Shown one piece after another: positions 2,704-63,692 of a DNA stretch of 64,000 bases. The DNA comes from Pelomonas sp. Root405. Lineage in GTDB: Bacteria > Pseudomonadota > Gammaproteobacteria > Burkholderiales > Burkholderiaceae_C. The DNA lies in assembly GCF_001425165.1 (NCBI RefSeq), contig NZ_LMDU01000001.1, positions 218,075-282,074 on the forward strand, written 5' to 3'. Position numbers and translations under genes: made by a program. The notes under the pieces were generated by a model. That model had not been told where the DNA came from. It made no database searches and worked only from the letters and a program-made list of their open reading frames with translations. Position 1 is the first letter of the stretch, and every line of letters starts with the position of its first letter.

Positions 2704-2930
2704 AAGCCCCTCGCCCGGTCTTGCCCGGCTGAACGCCGGCAAGCCCAGTCGGTCTTGCAGACCGCGCTGCGGCAGTGCCGCAGCCCTTCGGCAGGCACAT
2801 CACATCCACTGGATGTGATGTGTCCGGCCTCAGCCCCCTGGGGGACGGCGATGCTTGCGGCATCGAGCCGCAAGCACATCGCCAGCGCGGGCCGGCTTGG
2901 GGCGGCCCGGCGCTCTGCCCGAAATACTTT
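2704..2930 (+). repeat. Interspersed 3'-end repeat, copy A (with internal insertion)
   Basis: Starts five bases after the stop codon of the upstream gene and runs almost to the stop of the convergent gene. Outer parts (about 2704-2755 and 2836-2930) match two other copies in this window (14402-14545 on the minus strand and 63548-63692). Shared blocks include CCCCTCGCCCGGTC, GCTGAACGC, GACGGCGATGCTTGCGGC and GGCCGGCTTGGG. Copy A alone has about 80 extra bases. These hold two perfect palindromes, 2766-2784 (9-bp arms) and 2796-2822 (13-bp arms CACATCACATCCA, 1-base centre). A third hairpin, 2848-2881, with GCTTGCGGC and GCCGCAAGC arms, belongs to the repeat core. Confidence 0.85.
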
Positions 2931-2932
2931 CT

Positions 2933-4198
2933 TTATGCGCAGCGGCGGGCCGCACCGGCCACCAGTGCCAGGCCGGCCAGCAGCAGGGCATAGGTCTGCG
3001 GCTCGGGGATGGGCGCATTGATCGACAGCGCGACGAACTGGGTGAACTGGCTGCCGCCGAAGTTGTTGTCGGACACCAGGATCAGCGTCTGCTTGCCATC
3101 GATGACCGGGCCCAGCGTCAGACCCTCGATGTTGTCGAGAGCGAGCGCGCTGCCGTCGTCGTGCTTGAGCGTCGACAGGTCCAGCAGCAACTCCTTCTTG
3201 ACGGCCGTCACCGCTGCGCCGGCAATCGAGGTCAGGCCCGACACATCGGTCGCCCCGCGCGCATCGGCATAGAAGAGGCGGATGGTGTTGCCGGTGGGCT
3301 GTCCGTTGGTGGTGGCCGCCACGCCGGGTGTGGCCGCGCCGACGGCAAAGCTGCGTTCGATGGTGATGAACTGGCGGTCACCGATGGCGAGCATGTCGGC
3401 CAGGCCGTTGGTGGCGAACAGGCCGGGGAAGATCGGCGGCAGGGCCACCGGGGACACGTCGTACACATACTCCGCGCCGGCCAGGCCGGTGGCGGCGTCA
3501 AAGCCCAGCAGGCGGGCGCGGCTGCCGTGGGTCACGCTGCTGGGCGGGCCGTCCTGGGCCAAGGCGTTCTCTGTGGCAGTCCACAGCGTCTTGCCGTCGC
3601 GCGACAGGGTCAGGCTCTCGAAGGCGAGGTTGTTGTAGATGCCGGTGTCACCGGCGTTCAGGCCACCGCTGGAGCCGGCCGGCTTGTAGTGGGTCGGCAC
3701 GGCAAAGGTGCTGACGTAGCTGCCGTCGAGCCTCATGCTGCGCACGGTAGGGTCCTGGAAGCCGGCCGACGTGCGTTGACCTTCGTTGCTCCAATAGAGC
3801 TGGCCGCGCGCCGCGTCGTAGCGAATGCCCTCCGGGTCGACCTGGTTGGTGCCGAAGGGCAGGCCGTCGACGTTGGCGATGCTCGTCACCGCATGGAAGC
3901 TGACACCCAGACTGCCCGGCGTGGCGCTGCGCTGGAACTGCGCCAGGTCCAGCGACAGCTCGTAGAAGCGCGCCGGGTTGAGGGCGCTGCGGTCGTCGCT
4001 GATGGCGAAGTGCCGCTGCGTCAGCGGGTTGTAGTCGATGCCGGACAGGCCGCCCACCGCCGTGCCGCCGAACTGCCGGCCGGTTTCGACGATCTGCTGG
4101 CCCAGATAGACGAGCGGGTCGGCATGCGCCGGTGGGAGGGCGAGCGCCGACACAGCGAGGGCCAGCGAAGCCACCAGGGGTTTGGGCAGGATGTCCAT
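2933..4198 (-). CDS. Secreted esterase-like/phytase-like protein with PEP-CTERM anchor
   Basis: A 421-residue exported protein. The chosen ATG follows an AAGG ribosome-binding site with a 7-base spacer and opens a normal signal peptide ending in PPAHA. A 16-residue longer start exists but lacks these features. The body contains GLSGIDYNP, FAISDDRS and DNIEGLTLGP, the signature of the esterase-like activity of phytase family (PF13449), a beta-propeller whose substrate is not established. The last 24 residues are a PEP-CTERM sorting signal: PEP, then a hydrophobic helix LLLAGLALVAG, then Arg-Arg. This implies processing by an exosortase elsewhere in the genome. It converges on the upstream gene across repeat copy A. 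Confidence 0.88.
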   Translation of the reverse strand: MDILPKPLVASLALAVSALALPPAHADPLVYLGQQIVETGRQFGGTAVGGLSGIDYNPLTQRHFAISDDRSALNPARFYELSLDLAQFQRSATPGSLGVSFHAVTSIANVDGLPFGTNQVDPEGIRYDAARGQLYWSNEGQRTSAGFQDPTVRSMRLDGSYVSTFAVPTHYKPAGSSGGLNAGDTGIYNNLAFESLTLSRDGKTLWTATENALAQDGPPSSVTHGSRARLLGFDAATGLAGAEYVYDVSPVALPPIFPGLFATNGLADMLAIGDRQFITIERSFAVGAATPGVAATTNGQPTGNTIRLFYADARGATDVSGLTSIAGAAVTAVKKELLLDLSTLKHDDGSALALDNIEGLTLGPVIDGKQTLILVSDNNFGGSQFTQFVALSINAPIPEPQTYALLLAGLALVAGAARRCA

Positions 4199-4379
4199 GG
4201 GTCGGCCTTCATGACGTGAGGGGGAGGGACTCGCGGCAATGCGCATGCCTGCAAAGGCGTCGCAGCCTAGTCGCCCGACATGACATCGCTGCGTCGCGCA
4301 TCAATGCCATGCGGATTGCTCACCGCCGGCCGCCGCGCGCCGGCATAAGCTTGCACGGCCCCCATGAATGAAAGGTCCC

Positions 4380-5060
4380 ATGAAGCTCTACATCGGCAAC
4401 AAGAACTACTCGTCCTGGTCCATGCGCAGCGGCGTCCTGCTGGCGGCTTTCGGCATTCCCGTCGACGAGGTCAAGCTACGCTTCGACTTCAGCGAGGGCT
4501 CTGAATGGAGCCGCGTCATCTCGGGCATCACGCCCACCAAGCGCGTGCCGGTCATCGTCGAGGATGACGGCTTCACCGTGTGGGACACGCTGGCCATCAC
4601 CGAGTACATCGCCGACCGCCATCCCGAGCACGCCATCTGGCCGCGCGACGTGAAGGCCCGCGCCCGGGCGCGCAGCCTGTGTGCGGAGATGCATGCCGGC
4701 TTCATGCGGCTGCGCACCGTCTGCCCGATGAACATCGAGGTGTTCTTCCCCGATGTCGGCGCCAGGCTGTGGGCCGAGGACGAGGCGCTGCGTGCCGATG
4801 TGGCCAGGCTGGATGCGGCCTGGAGCGATGCGCTGGCCGGCAGCGGCGGCCCCTTCCTGTTCGGCGCCTTCAGCGCGGCGGATGCCTACTTTGCGCCGGT
4901 CGCCGTGCGGCTGAGCCGATTTGGCTTGCCGGTATCCGAGGCGGCAGCGGCCTATCGCGACGCGCTGCTGGCGCATCCGGCGGTGGAGGACTGGGTGGCG
5001 GACGCGCTGCGGGAGCAGGACTTCATCGTCGAGGACGAGCCTTACCGCAAGAGCCGCTGA
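4380..5060 (+). CDS. Glutathione S-transferase family protein
   Basis: A 226-residue cytosolic protein with a thioredoxin-like N-terminal domain (KLYIGNKNYSSWSMR, then KRVPVIVEDDG with the cis-Pro that binds glutathione and DTLAITEYIAD) and an all-helical C-terminal domain. The Ser in the NYSSWS loop is the likely thiol-activating residue. This is typical of the bacterial GST subgroup that starts MKLYxGNKNYSSWS. The ATG at 4380 has AAAGG four bases upstream and gives that canonical start. An in-frame ATG at 4368 adds only four residues. It stands alone between the PEP-CTERM gene (divergent) and pepQ. Substrate unknown. Confidence 0.92.
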   Translation: MKLYIGNKNYSSWSMRSGVLLAAFGIPVDEVKLRFDFSEGSEWSRVISGITPTKRVPVIVEDDGFTVWDTLAITEYIADRHPEHAIWPRDVKARARARSLCAEMHAGFMRLRTVCPMNIEVFFPDVGARLWAEDEALRADVARLDAAWSDALAGSGGPFLFGAFSAADAYFAPVAVRLSRFGLPVSEAAAAYRDALLAHPAVEDWVADALREQDFIVEDEPYRKSR

Positions 5061-5230
5061 CCCAGTTGGCGTTGCGTCCGGGCTGCGAGCATTGCGGGGC
5101 CCTGCTGCCGCCTGGAAAGTGCTCGCGTCTTTGCGGCGGCGGCGTCTGCCAGACAATCCAAAGTCCACCGTATCGCCACAAGCGATGCCCCAAGCTGCAA
5201 GCCGAAACCGCTGAGATCCAGGACCGCCGC

Positions 5231-6547
5231 ATGAGCCTTTACCTCGACCATCTCGCCACGCTGCAACGCCAGGCGGAATCCGCGCTGGAGCGAACCGGCT
5301 TCGACATGCTGCTGATCGCCTCCGGCATCGAGAAGTACGCCTTCCTCGACGACCGCCCCTATCTCTTCCAGCCCAACCCGCATTTCAAACACTGGCTGCC
5401 GCTGACGAATCACCCGCACTCCTGGCTGGCGGTCAGGCCCGGCAGGAAGCCGCGCGTCGTCTACTACCAACCCGACGACTACTGGCATGTGCCGCCGAGC
5501 GCGCCCAGCGGTGAATGGGTGGATGCCGTCGAGCTCGTCGTCATCCGCGAGCCCGAAGATGCGGCCAAGGCGCTGGCCGATGTAGTCACGCCGCGCTCCG
5601 CCATCCTCGGCGAGCCCGACGCGGCCCTGCCTGGGCTGCTGCCCAACAATCCCGAGCCGCTGCTCAACCTGCTGCACTGGGCGCGCGGCGTGAAGAGCCC
5701 GTATGAGCTGACCCAGATGCGCGCCGCCCAGCGCCGCGCTGTGCCAGGGCACAACGCAGCGCGCGCGGCCTTCCTGCGCGGTGAGAGCGAGGCGGGCATT
5801 CATCGCGCCTACCTGCTCGCCACTGGCCACACCGACCGCGACCTGCCCTACAGCAACATCGTCGGTCTCAACGAGCATGCGGCGGTACTGCACTACCAAT
5901 ACCAGGACGAGAGCCCGCCGGCCGAAGTGCGCAGCTTCCTCATCGATGCTGGCGCGCAGGTGAACGGTTATGCCAGCGACATCACACGCACCTGGGTCGC
6001 GCCCGGCCATGACGAATTCGCGGCGCTGGTCGCGGCAATGGAGCGTGAACAACTCGGCCTAGTCGACCAAGTGCGTGAGGGCGTCGACTACCGCGACATC
6101 CACCTCAGTACCCACCGCCGCATCGCCCGCGTGCTGCGCGGGGCGGGCGTCGTCAACATGAGCGAGGAGGCCATGGTGGAAGAGGGCGTCACCAAGCCCT
6201 TCTTCCCGCATGGCATCGGCCACCTGCTGGGCCTGCAGGTGCATGACGTCGGCGGTTTCATGGCCAGCGAGACCGGCGGCGTGGCCGACAAGCCCGAGGG
6301 CCACCGTTACCTGCGCCTGACACGGCCGCTTCAGGCCGGCATGGTGGTGACCATCGAGCCGGGGCTCTACTTCATCCCGACGCTGCTGCGCCAGCTGCGC
6401 GCGTCGCCGCAGGGCGCGAACGTCGACTGGGACTGCGTCGAGCGCTTGTCGCGCTACGGCGGCATCCGCATCGAGGACGACGTGGCCTGCCGCCCCGCCG
6501 GCGAGGCGCCGGAGAACCTGACACGGGACGCGTTCGCAGTGGGGTGA
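5231..6547 (+). CDS. pepQ: Xaa-Pro dipeptidase PepQ
   Basis: Cytosolic metallopeptidase (M24B) that hydrolyses dipeptides with C-terminal proline. It has 438 residues, close to the 443 of the E. coli enzyme. The five metal ligands are recognisable: the two Asp of LIDAGAQVNGYASDITRTW, His in HGIGHLLGLQVHD, Glu in VTIEPGLYF and Glu in GGIRIEDDV. The N-terminal part SGIEKYAFLDDRPYLFQPN is specific to PepQ rather than PepP. ATG 5231 has AGGA upstream. The two genes that follow start within a few bases and may be read from the same transcript, though they look functionally unrelated. Confidence 0.95.
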   Translation: MSLYLDHLATLQRQAESALERTGFDMLLIASGIEKYAFLDDRPYLFQPNPHFKHWLPLTNHPHSWLAVRPGRKPRVVYYQPDDYWHVPPSAPSGEWVDAVELVVIREPEDAAKALADVVTPRSAILGEPDAALPGLLPNNPEPLLNLLHWARGVKSPYELTQMRAAQRRAVPGHNAARAAFLRGESEAGIHRAYLLATGHTDRDLPYSNIVGLNEHAAVLHYQYQDESPPAEVRSFLIDAGAQVNGYASDITRTWVAPGHDEFAALVAAMEREQLGLVDQVREGVDYRDIHLSTHRRIARVLRGAGVVNMSEEAMVEEGVTKPFFPHGIGHLLGLQVHDVGGFMASETGGVADKPEGHRYLRLTRPLQAGMVVTIEPGLYFIPTLLRQLRASPQGANVDWDCVERLSRYGGIRIEDDVACRPAGEAPENLTRDAFAVG

Positions 6548-6550
6548 CGC

Positions 6551-7378
6551 GTGCAAGCGGTGCTGAAGTGCGCAGCAAGCCTCGTCTTGGCGAGTGGCGC
6601 CGCCGCGGCGGCGGCGAGCGCGGAACTCGTGCTCCCTTGTCCAGGCTACAGCGGCCAAGCGGTCCCTGACACCATCGTCAAGGCGGTCCGGGAAGACTAC
6701 AGCGGTGCGGAGATCATTGGCAGGGGCAGCAATGGCGTCTGCCGGATCGTGCTTCCGCCGGGGGCCTTCTGGGTGAAGGCTGAGTCGTCTGAGGCGCGCT
6801 CCGTGGCAATCCGCGTAGTCGACGCCACGGCGCCGGGACGCATTCTGCGCATGCTGCCGTTGAAGGGTGCCGAAGCAGACTTGCAGCAGAGCTTGGCAGC
6901 GATGGTCCGGCGTGATCAGCAGGTGCGCCGCGCCCTTGAGGCCGCGCAGACCCAGGCCGATCAGACGCGCATTCAGGAGGCAGAGCGCGCGTTGATGGAA
7001 GCAGACGCGGTCCATGCGTCCGAACTCAAGCGTCTGCTGGAGACGCGTGGTATCCCCACGGCTGCCGAGGTGGGTATCGATGGCGTCGGCGCCGTGTGGC
7101 TGCTGCTTCAGCATTCACCGGACCTGATGGCGCAGCACATGCCGGGCTTGCGTGCGGCGGCGGCGGCGGGAGAAATTCAACGGTCCAATCTGGCGCTCAG
7201 CGAGGACCGCGTCGACATGATTCAAGGGCGACCGCAGCGCTACGGCAGTCAATTGCAACCCGGCCCGGACGGAAGATTGGCGCGGTACAGATGGGCCGAC
7301 CCCGACGACGTTGATGTCCGTCGCGCAGAGATGGACCTGGAGCCACTGCGCGCCTACCTGAAGCGCTTCGATCCATGA
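6551..7378 (+). CDS. Exported DUF6624-type protein of unknown function
   Basis: A 275-residue protein starting at a GTG three bases after the pepQ stop. It has a short signal peptide rich in Ala ending near AAASAE. The C-terminal half resembles the DUF6624 family: a helical DxxxHxxxLKRLLETRGIPT segment, WLLLQHSPDLMAQ, SEDRVDMIQGRPQRYGSQ and an acidic tail. The conserved His, Gln, Asp-Arg and QxYG residues look like an active site, but no reaction is known. The middle (about residues 100-150) is strongly charged and helical. The gene overlaps the next by four bases (ATGA), so the pair probably works together. Confidence 0.75.
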   Translation: MQAVLKCAASLVLASGAAAAAASAELVLPCPGYSGQAVPDTIVKAVREDYSGAEIIGRGSNGVCRIVLPPGAFWVKAESSEARSVAIRVVDATAPGRILRMLPLKGAEADLQQSLAAMVRRDQQVRRALEAAQTQADQTRIQEAERALMEADAVHASELKRLLETRGIPTAAEVGIDGVGAVWLLLQHSPDLMAQHMPGLRAAAAAGEIQRSNLALSEDRVDMIQGRPQRYGSQLQPGPDGRLARYRWADPDDVDVRRAEMDLEPLRAYLKRFDP

Positions 7379-8415
7379 GGGGTGCATGCTTGCTTTGCAT
7401 GGCAGTCGGTGCCGCCGGTGCGTGGGCCGCGGACGCGCAACTCGGCCGTGTCGAGGTGCAGGGCGAGGCGGCCATCGCGCGCGAGAAGAAGACGCTGGCC
7501 CAGCTCTTCAAGGCCCAGGCGCTGTTCGAGAAGTACCACGCGCTGGCGCCCGCCGCTGCGCTGAAGTTCAAGGTCTATGCGCGCACCCAGGCGGAGAGCG
7601 CGCAGCGCCTTGAGCTGGCCCTGGTGACGCCGGCGGGCCGCCAGCCGGTGCCGCTGGACGACGAGGACCGCTTCGTCATCGACCCCGCCTGGCGCGTGCT
7701 GGATGAACGCATCGAGCTGCGCAGCCGCCTGGGCGATGGCCGCGTGACCTGGCGGCCCGACATCCGCACGCCTGGCGTGGCCGAAGGCGAGCGCCGCCTG
7801 GGCGACCTGCGGCTGCAATGCCGCGTCGGCTTCGGCAGCGGCGTGGCGCGTGGCAGCAGCTGGTTCGGCGGGCTGCTGTCCTTCAGCTTCGATGACTGCT
7901 GGGACCCGGACTGGAGCCCCAGCAACTTCGCCGACCGGCCGGTCTTTGCGGTGACGCTGGTGCATGGCGAGCGCCGGCGGGTGCTCGGCGCGCGCCTGCT
8001 GCACGGCCTGCGCGACGACGGCGGGCCGGACTACGACTGGGGCTATTCGCTGCGCGAGCGCATGTTTCGGCTGCCCATCGGCGACACCAGCTGGCCGGAC
8101 GACACGCGGGTGGTTTTCGAGGCCATGGACGACCCGCCCGCCCCGCCCGACCCGGCCGTGCAGGCGCTGCCGCAGTCTTGGGCCAAGGCGGCGCTGGCCT
8201 TGTCACCCGGCCTGTCGCCGGCCGAGGTGGCCGAGCGCATGGGCGCGGCGCGCGACGACCTGCGTTTCGAATCGGGCCGGCGGTTGCAACGGCACCTGCA
8301 CGAGATCGGCACGCCGGATCAGCCCCGGCAGCTGGAGCTGGTCACGCTGTTCGACGCGGAGGACCGGCTGCTCAAGTCGTCGTTGCGGCGGCTGGCGCCG
8401 CCTGTCAAACGCTAG
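7375..8415 (+). CDS. Secreted protein of unknown function
   Basis: A 346-residue protein with a signal peptide (residues 1-19, ending GAWAA) and no family I recognise. Visible features are a repeated beta-rich pattern (RLELALVTPAGRQPVPLDD, RFVIDPAWRVLDE), a pair of Cys at about residues 145 and 169 that could form a disulphide in the periplasm, and a central aromatic Gly-rich stretch (SSWFGGLLSFSFDDCWDPDW). The N-terminal segment after the signal (LGRVEVQGEAAIAREKKTLAQLFKA) resembles the region following a TonB-receptor signal peptide, but no plug or barrel follows. Translationally coupled to the DUF6624 gene. It converges on the GH74 gene with a 14-base gap. Confidence 0.7.
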   Translation: MRGACLLCMAVGAAGAWAADAQLGRVEVQGEAAIAREKKTLAQLFKAQALFEKYHALAPAAALKFKVYARTQAESAQRLELALVTPAGRQPVPLDDEDRFVIDPAWRVLDERIELRSRLGDGRVTWRPDIRTPGVAEGERRLGDLRLQCRVGFGSGVARGSSWFGGLLSFSFDDCWDPDWSPSNFADRPVFAVTLVHGERRRVLGARLLHGLRDDGGPDYDWGYSLRERMFRLPIGDTSWPDDTRVVFEAMDDPPAPPDPAVQALPQSWAKAALALSPGLSPAEVAERMGAARDDLRFESGRRLQRHLHEIGTPDQPRQLELVTLFDAEDRLLKSSLRRLAPPVKR

Positions 8416-8429
8416 CGGCTGTCACGTTG

Positions 8430-10685: not shown

Positions 10686-10724
10686 GTCTCCGGCACCGTC
10701 TCGTTAGATGTGCCGGCAATCGTA

Positions 10725-10747
10725 ATTTGTTCGCCTGGCGAACAAAT
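10725..10747. promoter_or_regulatory. Perfect 11-bp palindrome upstream of GH74 gene
   Basis: ATTTGTTCGCC and its exact reverse complement separated by one base. It lies 40 bases upstream of the GH74 start codon, between that gene and the phosphatase gene transcribed in the same direction. The AT-rich outer arms and the absence of a following T-run on either strand argue for a repressor or activator site rather than a terminator. The shape (TTTGTTCGCC with one central base) fits sugar-responsive repressors of LacI or IclR type, but I cannot assign the protein. Confidence 0.6.
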
Positions 10748-10786
10748 CAGGCTTACCCCCGGAAACTCGCTGTCACCGCCGCTGGT

Positions 10787-11251
10787 TCAGCGCTTGCGCA
10801 GCGTGGCGATCAATCCGTCGCAGGCGGCTTCCACCAGGTCCAGCACCTCGTCGAAACCCGCCGCGCCACCGTAGTAGGGGTCGGGCACATGCTGCTTGCC
10901 GGTATGCGGCGCGTAGTCCAGCAGCAGCTTCAGGCGATGGCGCTGCGCCGGCGGGCAAAGGCGTTCGGCATGGGCAAGGTTGTCAGCATCCATCGCCAGC
11001 ACGAGGTCGAAGCGCTCGAAGTCCGCCGCCAGCAGCTTGCGGGCGCGCAGCGGGCTCAGGTCGTAGCCGCGTTTGGCGGCGTGCTCCTGGCTGCGTTCGT
11101 CGGGCGGCGCGCCGATGTGATAACCGTGCGTGCCAGCGGAGTCGACCTCGATGTCCAGCCCCGCCGCCTTCAGCTTGGCGCGCATGACGCCGTCAGCCGT
11201 CGGGCTGCGGCAGATGTTGCCCATGCAGAAGAAGAGGATGCGGCGCGTCAT
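10787..11251 (-). CDS. Low-molecular-weight protein-tyrosine phosphatase
   Basis: A 154-residue cytosolic phosphatase. The N-terminal P-loop CMGNICRS fits C(X)5R-S with catalytic Cys9 and Arg15. The C-terminal DPYYGG supplies the general-acid Asp and the adjacent aromatic residues. Length and layout are those of ordinary LMW-PTPs, which act on phosphotyrosine proteins or low-mass phosphoesters. No tyrosine kinase or capsule genes are nearby, so this is not obviously a Wzb-type partner. It lies 19 bases downstream of the TonB-dependent receptor gene on the same strand and could be co-transcribed with it. Confidence 0.95.
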   Translation of the reverse strand: MTRRILFFCMGNICRSPTADGVMRAKLKAAGLDIEVDSAGTHGYHIGAPPDERSQEHAAKRGYDLSPLRARKLLAADFERFDLVLAMDADNLAHAERLCPPAQRHRLKLLLDYAPHTGKQHVPDPYYGGAAGFDEVLDLVEAACDGLIATLRKR

Positions 11252-11270
11252 GGCCGCATTCTCGGCGCGC

Positions 11271-13580: not shown

Positions 13581-13618
13581 GACGGCCGCGATTCTCTATG
13601 CGCGGGCAACCCGCCCGC

Positions 13619-13641: not shown

Positions 13642-13642
13642 A

Positions 13643-14272: not shown

Positions 14273-14401
14273 CAATGACTCCAGGTGATGGGACGAATCC
14301 CGATGGAGACATTGCACGCGCCGCCGTGCCGGCGCGATTTGAGGCAACACAAGCTCGCGTTCAAACGCGAGCCGGGTCAGTCGTGAGTTTGCGTTGGATC
14401 A

Positions 14402-14545
14402 GACTTGCGGGCCGAGCGCAGGGCCGCTCCCAAGCCGGTCCGCGTGGGGTGATGCTTGCCGGTCGATCCGGCAAGCATCAACGTCCCCAAGGGGGACCGA
14501 CCGGGCTTGCCCGCGTTCAGCGAGGCAGACCGGGCGAGGGGCTCT
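14402..14545 (-). repeat. Interspersed 3'-end repeat, copy B
   Basis: Second copy of the repeat described at 2704, here in minus orientation. It begins inside the end of metF: the bases coding the last eight residues (SPSPGLPR) and the stop codon are repeat sequence. The core hairpin is strongest in this copy, with TTGATGCTTGCCGG and CCGGCAAGCATCA arms around GATCGA (about 14459-14491). The block ending in GGCTTGGGAGCGG is shared with copy C. In the direction of metF transcription it could form a stable RNA end structure. Confidence 0.85.
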
Positions 14546-15377
14546 GACGATCGAGGCCGAGGCGCTTGCATAACTCCAGCGTCAGCGCGCTCTGGTTGAG
14601 CGTGTAGAAGTGCAGGCCCGGCGCGCCGCCGGCGATAAGGCGCTCGCAGAGCTTGGCGGCGACATCCAGGCCGAACGCGCGGATGCTGGCCGTGTCGTCC
14701 ATGAAGCCTTCCATCTTCATCTGCACCCAGCGCGGGATCTCGATGCCGTCGCGCTGCGCGAACTGGGCGATGCGGCCATAGTTGTGGAAGGGCATGATGC
14801 CCGGCACGATGGGTTGCGTCACCCCGAGCCTGCGGGCCTCGTCGACGAAGTGGAAGTACGCGTCGGCGTTGAAGAAGAACTGCGTGATCGCACCGTCGGC
14901 GCCGGCGTTCATCTTGTCGGCGAAGTGCTGCATGTCCTTGGCGGCGTAGCGCTGCTGGGGGTGCACTTCCGGGTAGGCCGCGACCTCGATGTGCCAGTCC
15001 TTGCCTTGCGTCTCGCGGATGAAGCTGACCAGCTCGGACGCATAACGGAATTCGCCGGCGGTGGCCGTGCCGCTGGGCAGGTCGCCGCGCAGGGCGACGA
15101 CGCGGTGGATGTCCTGGGCGCGATAGGTGGCCAGGATCTCAGCGATGTTCTCTCGCGTGGAGCCGACGCAGCTGAGATGAGGCGCGGCCTCGAAGCCGGC
15201 CGCGGCAATGTCCATCACCGCGCCCAGCGTCTTGTCGCGCGTGGAGCCGCCGGCGCCGTAGGTGACGCTGAAGTATTGGGGCGCGAGCGCGCCCAGCTCC
15301 TGCACGACGGTCTTGAGCTTCTCGACGCCGACGGGCGTGTTGGGGGGGAAGAATTCGAAACTGACAGGGGTGGTCAT
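14517..15377 (-). CDS. metF: Methylenetetrahydrofolate reductase
   Basis: Reduces 5,10-methylene-THF to 5-methyl-THF, the methyl donor for methionine synthesis. It is a TIM barrel with FAD. Family motifs seen are SFEFFPPNT with the catalytic Glu, SVTYGAGGSTRD, HLSCVGSTREN, ALRGDLPSG, ITQFFFNADAYFHF and PGIMPFHNY. It has 286 residues, normal for MetF. The ATG at 15377 overlaps the tlyA stop by four bases, so translation is coupled. An ATG four codons upstream is possible but lies inside tlyA. The last eight residues and the stop come from repeat copy B, which suggests the natural C-terminus was replaced when the repeat inserted. Confidence 0.97.
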   Translation of the reverse strand: MTTPVSFEFFPPNTPVGVEKLKTVVQELGALAPQYFSVTYGAGGSTRDKTLGAVMDIAAAGFEAAPHLSCVGSTRENIAEILATYRAQDIHRVVALRGDLPSGTATAGEFRYASELVSFIRETQGKDWHIEVAAYPEVHPQQRYAAKDMQHFADKMNAGADGAITQFFFNADAYFHFVDEARRLGVTQPIVPGIMPFHNYGRIAQFAQRDGIEIPRWVQMKMEGFMDDTASIRAFGLDVAAKLCERLIAGGAPGLHFYTLNQSALTLELCKRLGLDRQSPSPGLPR

Positions 15378-16120
15378 CGAGTGGCCCACAAGAAGAATTC
15401 TCGGTTGCCATCACCGCCGGTGATGGAGCTGTCGAAGTAGTCGAGCACGCGCAGGCCCAAAGCGGTGCAGGCCAGGCGCACGCGGCCTTCGAGGCGGGCG
15501 TAGTCGGCCGGGTCCTTGACGAGGCCGCCCTTGCCCAGGGCCTGCGGCCCCAGTTCGAACTGCGGCTTGATCAGCACCAGCAGATGGCCGTGCACTTCCA
15601 GCCAGGGCAGCAGCTCGGGCAGGCTGCCCACCATGGAGATGAAGCTCAGATCGCCGACGATGAGCGGAAAGCCACCGGTCGGCGAGTGCGCGCGCAGCAC
15701 GTCCAGCTCGCGCACATGCGTGCCCTCCAGCGCCGTCACGCGCTGGTCGTCGTGCAGGCGGGCGTGCAGCTGGCCGTGGCCCACATCGATACCGACGACA
15801 TGGTTGGCGCCATGGGCAAGCAGGCAGTCGGTGAAGCCCCCGGTGCTCTGGCCGATGTCGAGTGCGGTGACGCCCTTGATGTCGGCCTGCGTGCGGGCGA
15901 TGGCGCCTTCCAGCTTGAGCCCGCCGCGCGACACATAGCGCAGCTCCGCGTCGTCGGTGACGCGCAGCTGCGCTGTCTCGTGCAGGTCCTCGCCCGCCTT
16001 CTTCAGCGCGGTCCAGCCGGTGGGCGAGGCCCATTCGGCTGCGCCGTTGCCGATCAGGCGCTGCGCGGCCGAGCGCGTGGGTGCCAGGCCCTGGGCGACG
16101 AGAAGCTGGTCAGCGCGCAT
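15374..16120 (-). CDS. tlyA: TlyA-family rRNA 2'-O-methyltransferase (hemolysin A family)
   Basis: A 248-residue protein with an N-terminal S4 RNA-binding domain (MRADQLLVAQGLAPTRSAAQRLI) and a C-terminal FtsJ/RrmJ-type methyltransferase domain. The SAM-binding motif is LDIGQSTGGFTDCLL, followed by GIDVGHGQLH and LIVGDLSFIS. A Lys in VLIKPQFE completes the expected catalytic K-D-K-type set. TlyA enzymes methylate ribose in 16S/23S rRNA; the older name 'hemolysin' is historical. It lies nine bases after ahcY and overlaps metF, so a SAM-consuming, SAH-producing enzyme sits in the middle of the methyl-cycle operon. Shared control by the SAH riboswitch is likely. Confidence 0.92.
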   Translation of the reverse strand: MRADQLLVAQGLAPTRSAAQRLIGNGAAEWASPTGWTALKKAGEDLHETAQLRVTDDAELRYVSRGGLKLEGAIARTQADIKGVTALDIGQSTGGFTDCLLAHGANHVVGIDVGHGQLHARLHDDQRVTALEGTHVRELDVLRAHSPTGGFPLIVGDLSFISMVGSLPELLPWLEVHGHLLVLIKPQFELGPQALGKGGLVKDPADYARLEGRVRLACTALGLRVLDYFDSSITGGDGNREFFLWATR

Positions 16121-17620: not shown

Positions 17621-17696
17621 CCAGCGGGTGAGCGCAGTTGCAAGAAGAGTTCCGAGCCTGGCCTCAAAAGGTGCTGAGGTTGCAACGCTCCTCGGA
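17621..17696 (-). ncRNA. SAH riboswitch in the ahcY leader
   Basis: Reading the minus strand from 17695, the sequence opens with CCGAGGAGCGTTGCAA, then a short hairpin (CCTCAGCACC...GAGG), AGGCTCGGAA, and later TTGCAACTGCGCTCACC. These are the conserved blocks of the SAH riboswitch class. P1 pairs CCGAG with CTCGG, and the pseudoknot pairs GAGCG with CGCTC; a UUGCAA segment is also repeated and self-complementary. The element ends about 75 bases before the ahcY start codon. Known members switch gene expression on when S-adenosylhomocysteine accumulates, which fits ahcY and the two downstream genes. Confidence 0.93.
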
Positions 17697-17766
17697 AGCC
17701 GCGCATTCTAGGCGGCTCGACAGGGCCTTTGCAGCTCGCGCGATGATGACCACAAGGAGTTCCCCG

Positions 17767-52646: not shown

Positions 52647-52658
52647 GGGTTTTTGGAG

Positions 52659-54833: not shown

Positions 54834-54934
54834 GCAACGTATCGAGTGAGGGGTTGTGCGCGGTGAAGGCGCGTGGAATTGTGCGCCGAAGTCATCAGCC
54901 AGAATCGCGACCGCCCGTCGCAACGAACAACAAC

Positions 54935-57181: not shown

Positions 57182-57651
57182 CCGACCTGCCTTTCCGCGA
57201 CCTGGCACTGGACGCCGCCGGCAAGCTGGTGCTGATCGATCTTGACGGGGTGGCCCATGTGGGCGTGACGCCCGTGCGCGCCCACCCGATTTCCGCGCCC
57301 GACGACGGCTTGAGCCTCGTCGGCGTGCATGGCCATGAGCTGGCCTGGGTGGCGCGCCTGTCGGCCCTGCCAGACGCCCCGCGCGGCCTGCTCGAAGCCG
57401 AGCTGGCCGCGCGCGAATTCCACCCCACGCTCAAGCGCCTGATCTCCGTGAACACCTTTGCGACACCCAGCACCTGGCGCGTCGAGACCGACCGCGGCGA
57501 GGTCGACTTCGTGCTGAAGAGCGAAGAAGACATCCGCCGCCTGGACGAGGGCCGGCTGCTGATCACGTCCAACCATGGCGTGCAGATGCAGGTGCCGGAC
57601 CGCTGGGCGCTGGACAAGCAGTCAAAGCGCCTGCTGGAGCGGTTTCTCTGA
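57178..57651 (+). CDS. DUF1854 family protein of the cyanophycin locus
   Basis: A 157-residue soluble protein of the DUF1854 family: KLVLIDLDGVAHVGVTPVRAHPISAPDDGLSLV opens it, followed by DAPRGLLEAELAAREFHPTLKRLISV and ETDRGEVDFVLKSEEDIRRLDEGRLLITSNHGV (motifs cited only by their key parts PISAPDDG, REFHPTLKRL and LITSNHGVQ). It has a mixed alpha-beta fold and no signal peptide. Translationally coupled to the ABC transporter (ATGA overlap). It is found in this context in other betaproteobacteria, so it probably acts with the transporter, but no biochemical role is known. Confidence 0.9.
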   Translation: MTDLPFRDLALDAAGKLVLIDLDGVAHVGVTPVRAHPISAPDDGLSLVGVHGHELAWVARLSALPDAPRGLLEAELAAREFHPTLKRLISVNTFATPSTWRVETDRGEVDFVLKSEEDIRRLDEGRLLITSNHGVQMQVPDRWALDKQSKRLLERFL

Positions 57652-57660
57652 CGCATGAAA

Positions 57661-57683
57661 AAGCCGCCTGCAAGAGGCGGCTT
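57661..57683 (-). terminator. Rho-independent terminator for bfr (and possibly the ABC operon)
   Basis: Stem AAGCCGCCT / AGGCGGCTT with a five-base loop. On the minus strand it is followed by TTTTTCATG, the expected U-run, so it best fits termination of bfr. It lies between the convergent DUF1854 and bfr genes and may also slow transcription from the plus side. Confidence 0.88.
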
Positions 57684-57710
57684 CGCTCGGTGACGCGGGT
57701 TGTCGGCTGA

Positions 57711-58187
57711 TCAGCTGGCCTCGCCCATTTGCGATTGCAGATAGTTCTGCTCGCCGACCGCGTTGACCAGCTCCAGCTGGGTTTCGAGGTGGTCGATGTG
57801 CTCCTCGGTGTCTTCCAAGATCTGTACGAACAGCTCGCGTGACACGTAGTCGCGCACGCTTTCGCAGTAAGCGACGGCTTCCTTCAGGTGCACATGCGAG
57901 GCCTTCTCGATGATGAGGTCGCAGCGCATCGTCTCGACGGCGTTCTCGCCGATGTAGATCTTGCCGAGGTCCTGCAGGTTGGGCAGGCCGTCAAGCGTCA
58001 GCACGCGCTCGATGAGCTTGTCAGCGTGCTTCATCTCCTCGATGGACTCTTCGTATTCGTGCTTGGCCATCTTCAGCAGACCCCAGTTCTTCAGCATGCG
58101 GGCATGCAAAAAGTACTGGTTGATGGCGGTCAGCTCCAGCTTGAGTTGCTGGTTCAGGTGGACGAGGACCTGGGCGTCGCCTTTCAT
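57711..58187 (-). CDS. bfr: Bacterioferritin
   Basis: A 158-residue iron-storage subunit; 24 assemble into a shell with heme at the interfaces. The heme ligand Met52 is present (EEMKHADK). Ferroxidase ligands Glu18, Glu51, His54, Glu94 and His130 are in place. At the position of Glu127 there is Thr (DTEEH, with Glu128 and Glu129 next to it), so the second iron site may differ from the E. coli type unless a neighbouring Glu substitutes. Diverges from bfd, with a Fur-like box between them. Confidence 0.95.
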
Positions 58188-58257
58188 GGGGAACTCCGAT
58201 TCGTGAAATTGAGCCGGAGTATCCCCAGCGAAAGCCCCCCAGCAAAACCAGTCTTTT

Positions 58258-58284
58258 TGCTAATGAGATCGATTCGCATTAGAC
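58258..58284. promoter_or_regulatory. Fur-box-like palindrome between bfr and bfd
   Basis: CTAATG and CATTAG arms (58260-58265 and 58277-58282) around GAGATCGATTC, a near-dyad resembling the AATGA-rich Fur consensus. It lies 12 bases before the bfd start and about 70 bases from the bfr start, in a good place to repress bfd when iron is sufficient. Assignment to Fur is by resemblance and context. Confidence 0.65.
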
Positions 58285-58293
58285 TCTGCATCC

Positions 58294-58518
58294 ATGATTG
58301 TTTGCGTCTGCCACCGCGTCTCCGACCGAGACATCGCGATTGCCGCGTCCAGCGGTTGCCCGAGCTTTGAGGCCTTGCAGGACGACCTGCGCGTGGCAAC
58401 GGCCTGTGGCGCTTGCCGGGACTGCGCCTGTGCCGTCTTCGAGGAGAGCCGCGTGGACGTCAGCGGGCCGCGAAGCCGCAGCATCGCTGTAACGATCAAG
58501 CCGTTGATGGCGGCCTGA
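58294..58518 (+). CDS. bfd: Bacterioferritin-associated ferredoxin
   Basis: A 74-residue [2Fe-2S] protein that delivers electrons to bacterioferritin to release iron. The four cluster ligands match the family pattern exactly: Cys4 and Cys6 (MIVCVCHRVS) and Cys38 and Cys41 (CGACRDC). Further Cys at 22, 44 and 46 are extra. Divergent from bfr, with a Fur-like box just upstream, which is the usual iron-starvation control of bfd. Confidence 0.95.
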   Translation: MIVCVCHRVSDRDIAIAASSGCPSFEALQDDLRVATACGACRDCACAVFEESRVDVSGPRSRSIAVTIKPLMAA

Positions 58519-58533
58519 ACTAGAATCCGCGTC

Positions 58534-58557
58534 GGCGCCGAATTCCGGCGCCTTTTT
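58534..58557 (+). terminator. Terminator or leader hairpin upstream of the cold-shock gene
   Basis: Stem GGCGCCG / CGGCGCC with a five-base loop followed by TTTTT. It fits intrinsic termination of bfd. It also lies downstream of a TAGAAT box at 58521-58526, so if that box is the cold-shock promoter the hairpin would be in its leader and act as an attenuator. Confidence 0.75.
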
Positions 58558-58643
58558 GTTGGTCTTGTTTCCTGAACGTCGTTGTGAACTCCGCAGCCGC
58601 TCTGGGGCGGGCCACGCAGCACGACACACAGTAAGGAAATTCC

Positions 58644-58859
58644 ATGAGCACCCTCCAAACCGGCACTGTCAAATGGTTTGACGACGGCAAGGGCTTCGGC
58701 TTCATCACGCCGGCCGACGGCAGCAAGGACTTGTTCGCCCACCACAGCGAAATCAAGAACAACGGCGGCTTCCGCACCCTGGCCGAAGGCGCCCAGGTCG
58801 AATTCGAAGTGAAGCAGGGCCCCAAGGGCCTGCAAGCCGCGAACATCCGTTCGCTGTAA
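58644..58859 (+). CDS. CspA-family cold-shock protein
   Basis: A 71-residue OB-fold RNA chaperone. RNP1 is KGFGFITP and RNP2 is [20 protein letters not shown] opens the fold. The gene has a leader of about 110 bases containing a hairpin, and AAGGAAA lies seven bases before the ATG. Cold-shock leaders of this type often control mRNA stability and translation with temperature. The protein is complete, ends with a normal stop and is followed by a terminator. Confidence 0.96.
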
Positions 58860-58885
58860 TCCTCACGGCTTCGGCCGTTGAGTCA

Positions 58886-58916
58886 AGCCCGCGCACTGCG
58901 CGGGCTTTGTGCTTTT
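58886..58916 (+). terminator. Rho-independent terminator of the cold-shock gene
   Basis: Stem AAGCCCGCGC / GCGCGGGCTT with a three-base loop (ACT), followed by TGTGCTTTTT. It starts 27 bases after the cold-shock stop and ends before the YgiQ start. Confidence 0.9.
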
Positions 58917-58943
58917 TGGGCGCGCCCAACGACAATCGCTGCT

Positions 58944-61205
58944 ATGTCTGCCTTACCCCTTCCGCCCAAGGCGCTGACCGCTTACCGCCCGTTCTGGGCC
59001 AAGCGCTTCGGCCCTGCGCCCTTCCTGCCCATGTCCCGGGCGGAGATGGAGCAACTCGGCTGGGACAGTTGCGACATCATCATCGTCACGGGCGACGCCT
59101 ACGTCGACCATCCCAGCTTCGGCATGGCCGTCATCGGCCGCACGTTGGAGGCCCAGGGCTTTCGCGTCGGCATCATTGCGCAGCCGGACTGGCAGAGCGC
59201 CGACGCCTTCAAGGCGTTGGGCAAGCCCAACCTGTTCTTCGGTGTCGCGGCCGGCAACATGGATTCGATGATCAACCGCTACACGGCTGATCGAAAAATC
59301 CGCAGCGACGATGCCTACACGCCGGGCGGCGAAGGCGGCAAGCGCCCCGACCGCGCGACGCTGGTCTACACCCAGCGCTGCCAGGAAGCCTTCAAGGACG
59401 TGCCCGTCGTCATCGGCGGCATCGAGGCCTCGCTGCGCCGCATCGCCCACTACGACTATTGGCAGGACAAGGTGCGCCGCTCCGTGTTGGTGGACGCCAA
59501 GGCCGACCTGCTGGTCTACGGCAACGCCGAGCGCGCCATCATCGAGATCGCCCACCGCCTGGCGCGCCGCGAGCCCATCGAGGCGCTGACCGACGTGCGT
59601 GGCACGGCGTTCATGCGCCGCACCGACGACCCGACGGCGGACGGCTGGTTCGAACTGGACTCGACCGAAGTGGACCGCCCCGGCCGCATCGACAACCTCA
59701 TCAGCCCTTACCAGATCGTCGATGACAAGGTCTGCGAGACCGCTGAGCCCGACGCGCCCAAGCCGATCACCATCCACAAGATCGGCCGCATCCAGATGCC
59801 GCCGCGCGACCACACCGTCGTGCGACTGCCGGCCTACGAGCAGGTCAAGAGTGACCCGGTGCTCTACGCCCACGCCAACCGCGTGCTGCACCTGGAAACC
59901 AACCCCGGCAACGCCCGCGCGCTGGTGCAGCGCCATGGCGAGCGCGACCTCTGGATCAACCCGCCGCCCATCCCGCTGACGACGCCGGAGATGGACCACG
60001 TCTTCGACCTGCCGTATGCGCGTGCCCCGCACCCGAGCTATGCGGATGAGGCCGGCAGCCACGACGGCGCGACCAAGATCCCCGCGTGGGAAATGATCCG
60101 CTTCAGCGTCAACATCATGCGTGGCTGCTTCGGCGGCTGCACCTTCTGTTCGATCACCGAGCACGAGGGCCGCATCATCCAGAGCCGCAGCGAAGACTCC
60201 GTGATCCGCGAGATCGAGGAGATGCGCGACAAGGTCAAGGGCTTCACCGGCATCGTGTCGGACCTGGGCGGCCCCACGGCCAACATGTACCGCATCGGCT
60301 GCAAGTCGCCTGAGATCGAGGCCGCCTGCCGCAAGCCCAGCTGCGTCTACCCCGGCATCTGCCCGAACCTCAACACCAGCCACGACCCGCTGATCAAGAT
60401 GTACCGCCGCGCCCGCGCGCTGCCGGGCGTCAAGAAGATCCTGATCGGCTCCGGCCTGCGCTACGACCTGGCCGTGCAGTCGCCGGAGTACGTGAAGGAG
60501 CTGGTCACGCACCACGTCGGCGGCTACCTGAAGATCGCGCCCGAGCACACCGAGGGCGGCCCGCTGTCCAAGATGATGAAGCCGGGCATCGGCAGCTATG
60601 ACCGCTTCAAGCAGATGTTCGAGGCGGCCAGTGCGGCGGCCGGCAAGAAGCAATACCTGATCCCCTACTTCATCGCAGCACACCCTGGCACCAGCGATGA
60701 GGACATGATGAACCTCGCCGTCTGGCTGAAGAAGAACGGCTTCCGCGCCGACCAGGTGCAAACCTTCTACCCCAGCCCGATGGCCACGGCCACGGCGATG
60801 TACCACTCGGGGCTTAACCCGCTCAAGGGCATCAGCCGCGACGAGGCCCGCGGCGAGAAGGTCGACATCGTGCGCGGCGAGCGCCGCCGGCGCTTGCACA
60901 AGGCCTTCCTGCGCTATCACGATGCCAACAACTGGCCGCTGCTGCGCGAGGCGCTCAAGGCCATGGGCCGCGCCGACCTGATCGGCAATGGCAAGCACCA
61001 CCTGATCCCGAGCTACCAGCCGCTGACCGACGGCAGTTACGACAGCGCGCGCCGCAAGAATTCCACCGTCGTCAAGCCGGCCGCCACGCCGGCATCGGCG
61101 CCGCGCAAGGGCCAGCTCTTGACCCAGCACACCGGCCTTCCGCCGCGCGTCACGGGCGCGGCGCGCACCCCCGCCGCGCGTCCGGGCAAACCCGGTAAGC
61201 GTTGA
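58944..61205 (+). CDS. YgiQ family radical SAM protein
   Basis: A 753-residue protein. The radical-SAM cluster motif is [18 protein letters not shown] (CxxxCxxC) near residue 390. The N-terminal UPF0313 domain shows [23 protein letters not shown] and [20 protein letters not shown]. The C-terminal part ([23 protein letters not shown]) completes the YgiQ family, whose reaction is not established. ATG 58944 is chosen; a longer in-frame start lies inside the terminator of the cold-shock gene. Extra Pro/Lys-rich tail (about 35 residues) at the end. Monocistronic. Confidence 0.92.
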
Positions 61206-61333
61206 CGCGAACTGCGGGACATTTGCCCGCGCTTTTCGTGGCAGCCCCTGCGCGGATGCACTACGCTTGCGGCTCTTGACCGACGAGGCTGCCGCTGCCC
61301 TGGCTGGCGCCCGTGCCCGGAGTCCTCGCCCCC

Positions 61334-63550
61334 ATGCAAGAAACGCCCGCCGCAGACGACGATCTGCTCGAATTGCTCGACGAGCCCGAGCACGCTGAAG
61401 GCGAACACCGCCCGCAGGATCGTCCCTGGCGCATCCTCATCGTCGACGACGACGGCGACGTCCACAAGGCCACCGAGCTGGCCATGCAAGGCCTGACCGT
61501 CGAAGGCCAGCCCCTGGTCTTCCTGCACGCCAGCTCCGCCGCACAGGCCCGACAGCTGCTGGCCAGCGAAGAAGACCTCGCCGTCGTGCTGCTCGATGTC
61601 GTCATGGAGAGCGAGGACGCCGGCCTGCAACTGGTGCGCCACATCCGCGACGAGTTGCGCATGAACGCTGTGCGCATCGTGCTGCGCACCGGGCAGCCTG
61701 GCTATGCGCCCGAGATCGAGACGGTGCAGGCCTATGACATCAACGACTACAAGACCAAGTCCGAGCTGACGCGCACGCGCCTGTACACGGTGCTCACCGC
61801 GGCCGTGCGCTCTTACCGCCAGATCTGCGCGCTGGAAGCCAACCGCCGCGGGCTGGAGATGATCGTCGAGAGCAGCACGTCGCTGTCGCGCATGCGCGGG
61901 CTGTCGCGCTTTGCTGAAGGCGTCGTCACCCAGCTCTGCGCGCTGCTGGGCATCCTGCCCGAGGGCCTGGTCTGCGCCCAGGTGGGCGGCGAGACCGGCG
62001 ACGAGGTCCGCATCGTTGCGGCCGCAGGCCAGTACAGCGGCCTGATCGACCGACCGCTGGCCCAGGTCAAGATTGCCACCGTGCGTGACCGGCTAGAGCG
62101 CTGCCTGCAGGAGGAGCGCAACCTCTACGACGACGGCACCGTCCTCTACTTCGGCATGGGCCAGGGCCGCGCGATGGCGGCGTTGGTGGACGTCGGTCGC
62201 CAGTTGGACGAGCTCGACCAGCAACTGCTGCGCGCCTTCTGCTCCAACATCGCCGTCGGCTTCGAGAACGTGGTGCTGTACAGCCAACTGCTGGACCAAG
62301 CCTACAACGACCCGTTGCTGCGCCTGCCGAATCGCAACCGCTTCGTCGAACTGCTCGACAAGAACCTGAAGGACCCGGCCGGCGTCACGCTCGCGCTGAT
62401 CGACATCGACGACTTCTCGGACATCAACGACGCCTTCGGCCACCACTTCGGTGACCAGGTCCTGCAGGCCGTGGTGCATCGCATGAGCGAGATGCTGGGC
62501 CTGAACACCGCGATGGCCCGCGTCGGCGCCGACACCTTCGGCGTGCTCGGGGAACACGCCAAGGTGTGTCCCGAGACCGTCAGCGGCGTCTTTGCCGAGC
62601 CCTTCATGGTCGCGGGTGAGCGCCTGCAGCTGTCGGCCACCACCGGCCTAGTTCGGCTGGGCGAATCCAAGGCCGTCGGCTCCGAACTGCTGCTTGATGC
62701 GCAGATCGCGCTCAAACGCGCCAAGCAGCAGCAGCGCGGCTCATCTCAGTATTTCTCGGCCGCCATGGGCAGCGATGCGCGCGAGCGCTTCAAGCTGCTC
62801 AAGGGCCTGCGCACGGGTTTCGAGGAGAGCCATCTTTTCGTCGTCTACCAGCCGCAGGTCGAGCTCAGCACCGGCCGCGTCATCGGCGCCGAGGCGCTGC
62901 TGCGTTGGAAGACGCTCGACGGCCGCTTCATCCCGCCCGACCAGTTCATCCCGCTGGCCGAGCAGAGTGGCTTGATCATTCCCATCGGCGAGTTCGTCAT
63001 GCGCACGGCTTGCGCCCAGCTCAAGAAGATGCAGGCGCTGGGCCATGCCGACTTCCGCATGGCTGTCAATGTGTCGATGGCGCAGTTCCGCCACCCCGGC
63101 TTCATCGACATGCTGGACCGCTCCTTGGGCGACTGCAGCGTTGTCGGCGAGAACATCGAACTCGAGATCACCGAGTCGATGGCCATGGAGGATGCCGACC
63201 TCGTGCTGCGCGTGCTGGCCGACATCAAGCGCCTGGGTTTCAGCGTCGCCATCGACGACTTCGGCACCGGCTTCTCCTCGCTCAGCCAGTTGCGCCAGTT
63301 GCAGGTGGACCGCCTCAAGATCGACCGCGCCTTCGTGCAGGAGGCGCAGGCCTCTTCCGCCGGCTCGACCATCGCGCAGATGGTCATCAACCTGGGTCGC
63401 GGCCTGGGCCTGACCGTCATTGCGGAAGGCATCGAGACCGAGGAACAGCGCCAGTACCTGATCGGCCTGGGCTGCCACGAAGGCCAGGGCTGGCTGTTCG
63501 CCAGGCCCATGCCGGCCGATCAGCTCGAAACATTCATGGCAAGAACCTGA
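61334..63550 (+). CDS. DUF3369 response regulator with degenerate GGDEF and intact EAL (c-di-GMP phosphodiesterase)
   Basis: A 738-residue cytosolic protein. The receiver domain (about 34-160) has ILIVDDDGDV, phospho-acceptor Asp in VVLLDVVM and Lys in DYKTKSE. A DUF3369 domain (about 165-300, TSLSRMRGLSRFAEGV) follows. The GGDEF-like domain (about 325-470) reads VGADTFGVLG, so synthesis is not expected. The EAL domain (485-735) is complete: GAEALLRWKT, NVSMAQFRHPGF, IELEITESMA, IDDFGTGFSSLSQL, KIDRAFV and AEGIETEEQ. It is most likely a phosphodiesterase switched by an unlinked kinase. Start taken at ATG; an upstream GTG at 61313 is possible. Repeat copy C begins at its stop codon. Confidence 0.92.
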   Translation: MQETPAADDDLLELLDEPEHAEGEHRPQDRPWRILIVDDDGDVHKATELAMQGLTVEGQPLVFLHASSAAQARQLLASEEDLAVVLLDVVMESEDAGLQLVRHIRDELRMNAVRIVLRTGQPGYAPEIETVQAYDINDYKTKSELTRTRLYTVLTAAVRSYRQICALEANRRGLEMIVESSTSLSRMRGLSRFAEGVVTQLCALLGILPEGLVCAQVGGETGDEVRIVAAAGQYSGLIDRPLAQVKIATVRDRLERCLQEERNLYDDGTVLYFGMGQGRAMAALVDVGRQLDELDQQLLRAFCSNIAVGFENVVLYSQLLDQAYNDPLLRLPNRNRFVELLDKNLKDPAGVTLALIDIDDFSDINDAFGHHFGDQVLQAVVHRMSEMLGLNTAMARVGADTFGVLGEHAKVCPETVSGVFAEPFMVAGERLQLSATTGLVRLGESKAVGSELLLDAQIALKRAKQQQRGSSQYFSAAMGSDARERFKLLKGLRTGFEESHLFVVYQPQVELSTGRVIGAEALLRWKTLDGRFIPPDQFIPLAEQSGLIIPIGEFVMRTACAQLKKMQALGHADFRMAVNVSMAQFRHPGFIDMLDRSLGDCSVVGENIELEITESMAMEDADLVLRVLADIKRLGFSVAIDDFGTGFSSLSQLRQLQVDRLKIDRAFVQEAQASSAGSTIAQMVINLGRGLGLTVIAEGIETEEQRQYLIGLGCHEGQGWLFARPMPADQLETFMART

Positions 63551-63692
63551 AACCCCTCGTCTGGTCACGCCGCGCTGAACGCGGGCGCACCCAGCCGGTC
63601 CCCGAGGGGACGGCGATGCTTGCGGCATTGAGCCGCGCGCACATCGCCAGACGGGCCGGCTTGGGAGCGGCCCGGCGCTCGGCCCACAAAGA
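63548..63692 (+). repeat. Interspersed 3'-end repeat, copy C
   Basis: Third copy of the repeat. Its first bases are the stop codon of the EAL gene (TGAAACCCCTCG). It contains the same order of blocks as copies A and B, including GCTGAACGCGGG, GACGGCGATGCTTGCGGC, a GCGATG...CATCGC hairpin and GGCCGGCTTGGGAGCGG. Orientation again matches the gene that precedes it. Confidence 0.85.

Follow-up and report, generated by a model that had tools for sequence, protein, structure and literature searches.

Group IIC introns insert behind genes, at terminators, and HEARO elements follow ATGA or GTGA; insertion by an HUH enzyme is not expected to duplicate its target, and a HEARO-like element would stand 3' of a fixed tetranucleotide without duplication. 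For elements of the IS200/IS605 type with IscB or IsrB, an excerpt of the source gives 5'-NTGA-3' as the target-adjacent motif of DtIsrB and NTGG as that of the IsrB of a Burkholderiales bacterium (PMC9581776). Excerpts of further sources describe REP sequences as carrying a GT(A/G)G head, with the rayt gene flanked by two inverted REPs (PMC2817692), and miniature inverted-repeat transposable elements (MITEs) and the enterobacterial RU/ERIC sequences as short non-coding mobile repeats between genes (PMC2759123, PMC2229807). Here we describe a hairpin-built repeat that occurs three times in a 64,000-nucleotide (nt) stretch of Pelomonas sp. Root405 (RefSeq assembly GCF_001425165.1, contig NZ_LMDU01000001.1, positions 218,075 to 282,074; hereafter the window) and many more times in this genome and its relatives, and that is probably a non-coding, non-autonomous mobile family of 81-220 nt with insertion centred on stop codons. 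Like the REP/BIME repeats served by RAYT (TnpA-REP), it is an abundant, non-autonomous set of small extragenic palindromes with many copies per genome; it is a short non-coding mobile repeat between genes, as are MITEs and RU/ERIC, it shares a short TG(A)-containing target with HEARO, and it inserts behind genes as group IIC introns do. It differs from REPs in its length and its mainly single orientation at stops, and it is far too short for a group II intron. Its unusual features are the preference for stop codons and the duplicated junctions. No description of the family was found in the literature by word searches judged mostly by titles and abstracts, and as far as these and Rfam show, the data suggest an undescribed mobile, stop-codon-centred repeat family.

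The original prediction, made from the letters of the window, described a repeat present three times, always at the end of a gene and in that gene's orientation, and alignment, a covariance model, gene calls and Pfam all bear this out. The copies are homologous along their full length except for an insert in copy 1, which is longer because further hairpins, ~80 nt in all, separate hairpins 1 and 2, and each lies on the same strand as the gene preceding it. The identities proposed for these genes (epimerase-like, metF and EAL) are confirmed by Pfam. The proposed start, 0-5 bases past a stop or inside it, holds for the EAL gene; the epimerase offset is 6 nt, and the metF stop lies within copy 2, in hairpin 1. 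A covariance-model search of the window returned the three copies with E values of 6e-16 to 3e-21, the next best match having E 0.04; the model was built from 25 copies of the Root405 genome, copies 2 and 3 among them, which leaves copy 1 as the sole independent hit. The copies and their genes are placed as follows:

1746-2699, plus strand: epimerase-family gene (gene call; Pfam PF01370, NAD-dependent epimerase)
2697-2699, plus strand: TGA stop of the epimerase-family gene; copy 1 starts 6 nt later
2706-2923, plus strand: copy 1, extra-long class A, 218 nt (cmsearch 100.4 bits; alignment)
14399-14401, minus strand: probable former metF stop TGA, past the far side of copy 2, aligned with the stop of empty-site relatives
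14406-14542, minus strand: copy 2, class A, 137 nt (cmsearch 121.1 bits; model member)
14517-14519, minus strand: present metF stop TGA, inside copy 2, in the conserved GCTGAAC of hairpin 1
14517-15389, minus strand: metF open reading frame (Pfam PF02219, MTHFR/metF)
61313-63550, plus strand: GGDEF/EAL gene (gene call, Pfam)
63548-63550, plus strand: TGA stop of the GGDEF/EAL gene; copy 3 starts 1 nt later
63552-63688, plus strand: copy 3, class A, 137 nt (cmsearch 130.9 bits; model member)
63697-63699, plus strand: TGA beyond copy 3; from here on the sequence is similar to the empty site in G001, its stop and the DNA that follows

The empty metF site of genome G009 reads AAGTCTTGATCC, and its stop aligns with the TGA at 14399-14401; the empty site of G001 that corresponds to copy 3 reads GCTGAACCCCTGGTTGC.

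The three copies belong to a large family. A scan of the genome and its relatives with a covariance model, as had been proposed, gave at least 87 matches at E<=0.01 in Root405 (5.8 Mb, 18 contigs; best 150 of 12,696 candidates scored), while BLAST with copy 3 gave at least 43 (40 of 194 candidates scored). Here and throughout, copy counts are lower bounds, only 27-150 candidates having been scored per genome. All 20 genomes of the Roseateles/Pelomonas group, Root405 included, were positive at E<=1e-4, with at least 16-146 matches each (125 in G008), and a wider sample yielded matches at E<=1e-7 in at least 13 of 120 family genomes (12 of 119 genera, the own genus included). Among the matches listed, the hairpin-4 pattern occurs in records of Roseateles, Pelomonas, Aquabacterium, Methylibium, Piscinibacter and Rhizobacter, and also of Rubrivivax, Sphaerotilus, Ideonella, Rivibacter and others. 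One record titled Methylotenera sp. (L168, JAIPCJ010000105.1) has compared flanks identical to those of G017, from a Roseateles-type genus, and its name may be wrong. Copy 3 matched nothing in a plasmid collection or a phage collection, and carriage by plasmid or phage was rejected on that ground.

Position relative to genes was tabulated for 72 of the 87 Root405 matches, the 15 weakest, among them the ~81-nt ones, being left out; gene calls used codon usage trained on the window. A start between -1 and +12 nt of a same-strand stop was found for 62 of the 72 copies, where chance would give 3.2, since 4.4% of noncoding strand-positions qualify. Offsets of +1 (19 copies), 0 (11) and +6 (11) are the commonest. 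Neither random orientation and position nor a lack of additional copies, the outcomes named as contradicting the original prediction, was seen. For the 63 copies within -60..+30 the stop is TGA in 56, TAG in six and TAA in one, a TGA share that is not very unusual given 450 TGA among 580 stops of background genes; an A or G before the TGA (RTGA) is enriched, at 29 of 54 copies versus 105 of 450 background stops (p 2e-6). Stop codons make up only 24% of noncoding TGA triplets on both strands, so a TGA target alone cannot account for the focus on stops. The next gene is on the same strand for 48 of the 72 copies, starting within 60 nt for 37 of these, and convergent for the other 24. Eighteen of these 24 lie at -1..+8 of the sense stop, and their distance to the stop of the opposite gene spans -2 to 133 nt. 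As a pattern, the proposed targeting of stop codons by a mobile element is thus supported by this placement, together with the many copies and the empty sites and duplicated stops described below.

Read on the strand of the upstream gene, a class A element consists of GCCCCTCG, the end that faces the stop codon, followed by hairpins 1 to 4, of which hairpin 2 is GGTCCCC..GGGGAC, hairpin 3 GGCGATG..CATCGCC and hairpin 4 GGGCCGGCTTGGGAGCGGCCCGGCGCTCGGCCC. Hairpin 1 is either long (element ~138 nt) or short (~120 nt), and in some copies, including copy 1, extra hairpins between hairpins 1 and 2 extend the element to ~213-220 nt. Class B, of ~81 nt, is without hairpin 3. The structure of class A was assessed in 98 copies (69 of the 72 from Root405 and 29 from other records), a set that leaves out partial and second tandem copies. 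When 94 class A copies are aligned to the model, standard pairs fill 94.8% of pair cells, and both partners have changed in 30 of 49 pairs, as compared with 13.0 +- 1.6 in shuffles, an effect that is destroyed by sliding the partners; the hairpins are supported by covariation. Tandem arrays occur at L014, L128, L119 and L166; that at L128:3690-4123 consists of three class A copies, of which the last runs off the end of the locus, and that at L166:541-801 of three class B copies with a 90-nt period. A stretch like ATGGANNNCTGA, perhaps a 3' module or a ribosome-binding site, recurs between class A and the next gene in the right flanks of L089, L144, L010, L020, L164, L156 and L090. A second repeated hairpin sequence lies directly after the stop of an OmpW-family gene in G012 and recurs at L031:10472-10630, L068:14409-14483, L222, L051, L164 and L058. 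Rfam 15, run at the gathering score over the whole window and in low-threshold scans that included copy 2, gave nothing credible matching the element, and a known RNA family was rejected accordingly; the same window holds an SAH riboswitch at 17623-17699 on the minus strand (RF01057, 62.4 bits). A tRNA scan of eight loci that carry exceptional copies found none.

Gain and loss were followed at 18 orthologous positions by comparing filled with empty sites, copy 1 of the window lying outside this set. Apart from OmpW, phosphofructokinase, metF and EAL, the gene names were recognised by eye:

EAL/phosphofructokinase site: filled in Root405 and G006
metF site: filled in Root405 only
OmpW gene behind metF: filled in G005, G017 and G014
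Intercistronic site before a TlyA-like gene: filled in G017, G014 and G011
Site before a low-molecular-weight phosphatase-like gene: filled in G005, G017 and G012
lptB-rpoN site: empty in L184 and L219 (further named records)
L072 site: empty in G017
Further filled/empty sites: L159, L163, L131, L137, L088, L094, L010, L025, L030, L027 and L019

Each site is empty in at least one relative with the stop codon at that place, and copies are therefore gained and lost. At five clean junctions the element is flanked on either side by a stop, which is mostly part of a stop-start overlap, with repeats of 4, 4, 9, 9 and ~37 nt; the duplicated types are ATGA, GTGA, TGATG and TGAAATG. As stop/start sequence is present on both sides, both flanking genes stay readable. 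At L163 the arrangement is ATGA-element-ATGA where five genomes (G006, G008, G009, Root405 and G001) have a single ATGA overlap, and at L131 (G001, with G013 filled too, and G006, G007 and G008 empty) ATGA again stands on both sides, with some 28 additional nt inside the left one. The element at L285 (G007) is flanked on both sides by GAAACTGAA, its relatives G008 and G015 having one stop there, and that at L159 (the same as L258, G008) by CTGATGCGA, with a TGATG overlap in two of three empty relatives and apparent partial copies at this site in Root405 and G014. At the fabG-fabF-like site L137, filled in G007 and G016 and empty in G009 and G012, a ~37-nt tail of the first gene is repeated behind the element with some differences, and in G007 the GAGGGG..ATG of the element opens a 13-codon frame over the tail repeat that ends at the overlap with the second gene. 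In L274 (G007) a 13-codon frame made of the element start and a repeated tail of the preceding gene bridges to the overlap of the next gene, and L275 (G016) has a similar repeat. Copies may in addition exchange sequence: in L230/L231 and L246/L237 (G005/G017) the differences are concentrated within the element and the nearest flanking stretches are nearly identical, a weak indication of exchange between copies, the 340-nt flanks at L230/L231 being only 90% identical.

Class B copies were found by the exact hairpin-4 pattern, which makes hairpin 4 look more uniform than it is; 80 of at least 114 matching stretches were analysed, and the counts refer to 45 of the 49 listed copies (44 for free energy and 39 for strand), irregular and tandem ones being dropped. 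These copies lie between genes, mostly in the orientation opposite to class A, and on the gene strand read hairpin 4', hairpin 2', hairpin 1', CGAGGGGC, four bases and ATG, where CGAGGGGC is the same element end as GCCCCTCG of class A. The ATG falls exactly at +4 beyond the element end in 27 of 45 copies, and ATGA or GTGA is found in 23. A start at -3..+35 nt past a same-strand stop was found for 32 of 45, and four of 45 have the class A orientation behind a stop. The element ends in GAGGGG, which resembles a Shine-Dalgarno sequence at a favourable spacing, and a role of this end as the Shine-Dalgarno of the next gene is plausible given its distance from the ATG. Behind an EAL gene in L052 (G016) there is, by eye, a stretch like a decayed inverted class B copy beside other inserted DNA.

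The pairing errors of the hairpins carry information on which strand folds. In class A, single-transition cells on the forward (mRNA) strand are A.C in 98 cases and G.U in 44, so that the 98 read as G.U on the reverse strand. The A.C/G.U counts are 50/11 for hairpin 1, 28/16 for hairpin 3 and 14/7 for hairpin 4, and the bias has p 7e-6 if cells are independent and 9e-4 when the strongest pair is removed. Hairpin 4 has two T.G pairs (92/94 and 81/94) that stand outside the 98/44 count and favour the forward strand. In 39 class B copies the reverse strand, there the mRNA strand, has 11 G.U and three A.C; the same two hairpin-4 positions read C.A on it in 39 and 38 of 39 copies. At one position of hairpin 1 the reverse strand of class A has a swapped pair, A.G in 51 and G.A in 32 of 94 copies (C.T or T.C when read on the forward strand), and in class B this position is G.A in 20, A.G in five and Watson-Crick in 12 of 39. 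The wobble pairs and A.G/G.A swaps together suggest that the reverse strand folds in both classes, though it is the message only in class B, a conclusion held with moderate confidence because the class B free energies (below) disagree. As these marks lie opposite the mRNA strand in class A, the fold is probably maintained for the sake of the element.

The element was compared with each of the described systems. Of 98 class A copies, 5 carry GT(A/G)G close to the left end and 8 close to the right one, and the Y1 genes of Root405 are without adjacent copies: in 1.5 kb on each side of the three Y1_Tnp loci of this genome no convincing copy was found, the best candidate scoring 13.3 bits (E 0.12). 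A REP/RAYT system was rejected for this lack of linkage. The empty orthologous sites at 18 positions match the mobility expected of a MITE, but terminal inverted repeats (at least 8 matches in the terminal 9-12 nt) are found in 0 of 98 copies, and the duplication has no fixed length. RTGA enrichment recalls HEARO, but ATGA is duplicated at L163 and L131, no Rfam HEARO match lies in the window, the IscB/IsrB domain RRXRR was matched in 0 of 20 genus genomes, a search in which the controls were silent too, and Y1_Tnp is present but unlinked. As regards group IIC introns, the window has no Rfam group II match, and the reverse transcriptase domain RVT_1, present in 14 of 20 genus genomes, had no match in Root405, G001, G008, G011, G013 or G019.

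The same observations bear on what the repeat is for. That it is chiefly a host-kept structure at the mRNA 3' end or between cistrons, where RNA behind the stop would protect the upstream message or uncouple translation, was the other role proposed at the outset; the tight sense orientation at stops, the covarying hairpins and the copies kept at orthologous gene ends in Root405 and G005 (L026/L232, L072/L234 and L005/L248) speak for it, but it is not supported as the main reason and seems rather unlikely, given that the wobble and A.G/G.A marks point to the other strand with mixed free energies, T-runs are few, a same-strand gene often follows, every one of the 18 sites is empty somewhere and the 81-nt class stands mostly in reverse. 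The G+C-rich hairpins behind genes might also recall a family of intrinsic transcription terminators. This is extremely improbable and was rejected, since 2 of 98 copies have four consecutive T no more than 12 nt from the end and 1 of 98 has five T no more than 50 nt away, and the genes that follow are so often close and on the same strand.

Small repeats at gene ends are frequent in bacteria, and an ordinary MITE- or REP-like repeat might insert at random and have its misplaced copies purged by selection, genes being dense and copies inside a gene or promoter usually harmful. This is unlikely in view of the convergent-gene copies, which keep to the sense stop at widely varying distances from the other one, and of the small share of stops among the noncoding TGA triplets available. 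A retroposon-like route, in which a trans-acting reverse transcriptase copies structured reverse-strand RNA into gene junctions, would accommodate the variable duplication length as well as structure marks that fall on one strand in class A and class B alike; the absence of RVT_1 matches from six genomes, among them G008 with its many copies, makes it very unlikely.

Several points weigh against a mobile, stop-codon-centred family as well. Ten of the 72 copies start outside -1..+12, namely that of metF, which encloses the stop, the second member of a tandem array, two copies at offsets of +77 and +80, and six for which no sense gene was called. Hairpin 2 opposes the wobble trend (A.C 7, G.U 11 on the class A forward strand), the strand cells are not independent owing to the shared ancestry of copies, and the free energies are mixed, the forward strand being the stabler one in 30 of 98 class A but 36 of 44 class B copies. 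The evidence for duplication comes from the five clean junctions plus some weaker ones, and the length varies. When target duplication was tested in general over 123 copies, the result fell short of significance (the value was reached in 18 of 200 permutations), which fits old, decayed copies but may also mean that duplication is not as general as these junctions imply. Loss occurs: G005 is empty at the TlyA-like site filled in G017 and keeps there a few of the bases located past the element in G017, which looks like a deletion scar, so a single filled/empty pair cannot distinguish insertion from loss. Finally, no mobilising enzyme was found among Y1_Tnp, RRXRR and RVT_1, other transposase families not having been searched; a mobile family would need an enzyme encoded elsewhere in the genome, or one no longer present.

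Taken together, we consider a mobile repeat family the probable interpretation, and its spread might proceed as follows. An enzyme supplied in trans would recognise a short TGA-containing target plus another feature of gene ends, acting on the reverse strand of the element in folded form. Of the insertions at junctions, selection would retain those that do no damage; in class B, an end of the element itself would take over as ribosome-binding site, and copies would subsequently decay or disappear. More tentatively, and with less than even likelihood, integration could be directed to translation-stop sites as such, perhaps via translation termination or the mRNA-DNA context, in which case unknown machinery would use an opposite-strand structured intermediate and duplicate the junction, the end would supply a ribosome-binding site, and the element would be a junction-specific parasite under which operons keep working.

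Small bacterial repeats are usually viewed as accumulating wherever they are harmless; here 62 of 72 copies sit at stops. At the readable junctions the stop-start sequence is duplicated, so that the element can enter packed operons with neither gene broken, and one class brings an end that resembles a ribosome-binding site. If integration truly senses stop codons, this would be a target rule without precedent known to us, and one that could be tested in culturable environmental bacteria. The element also constitutes a natural experiment, in which overlapping genes are split and translational coupling is altered.

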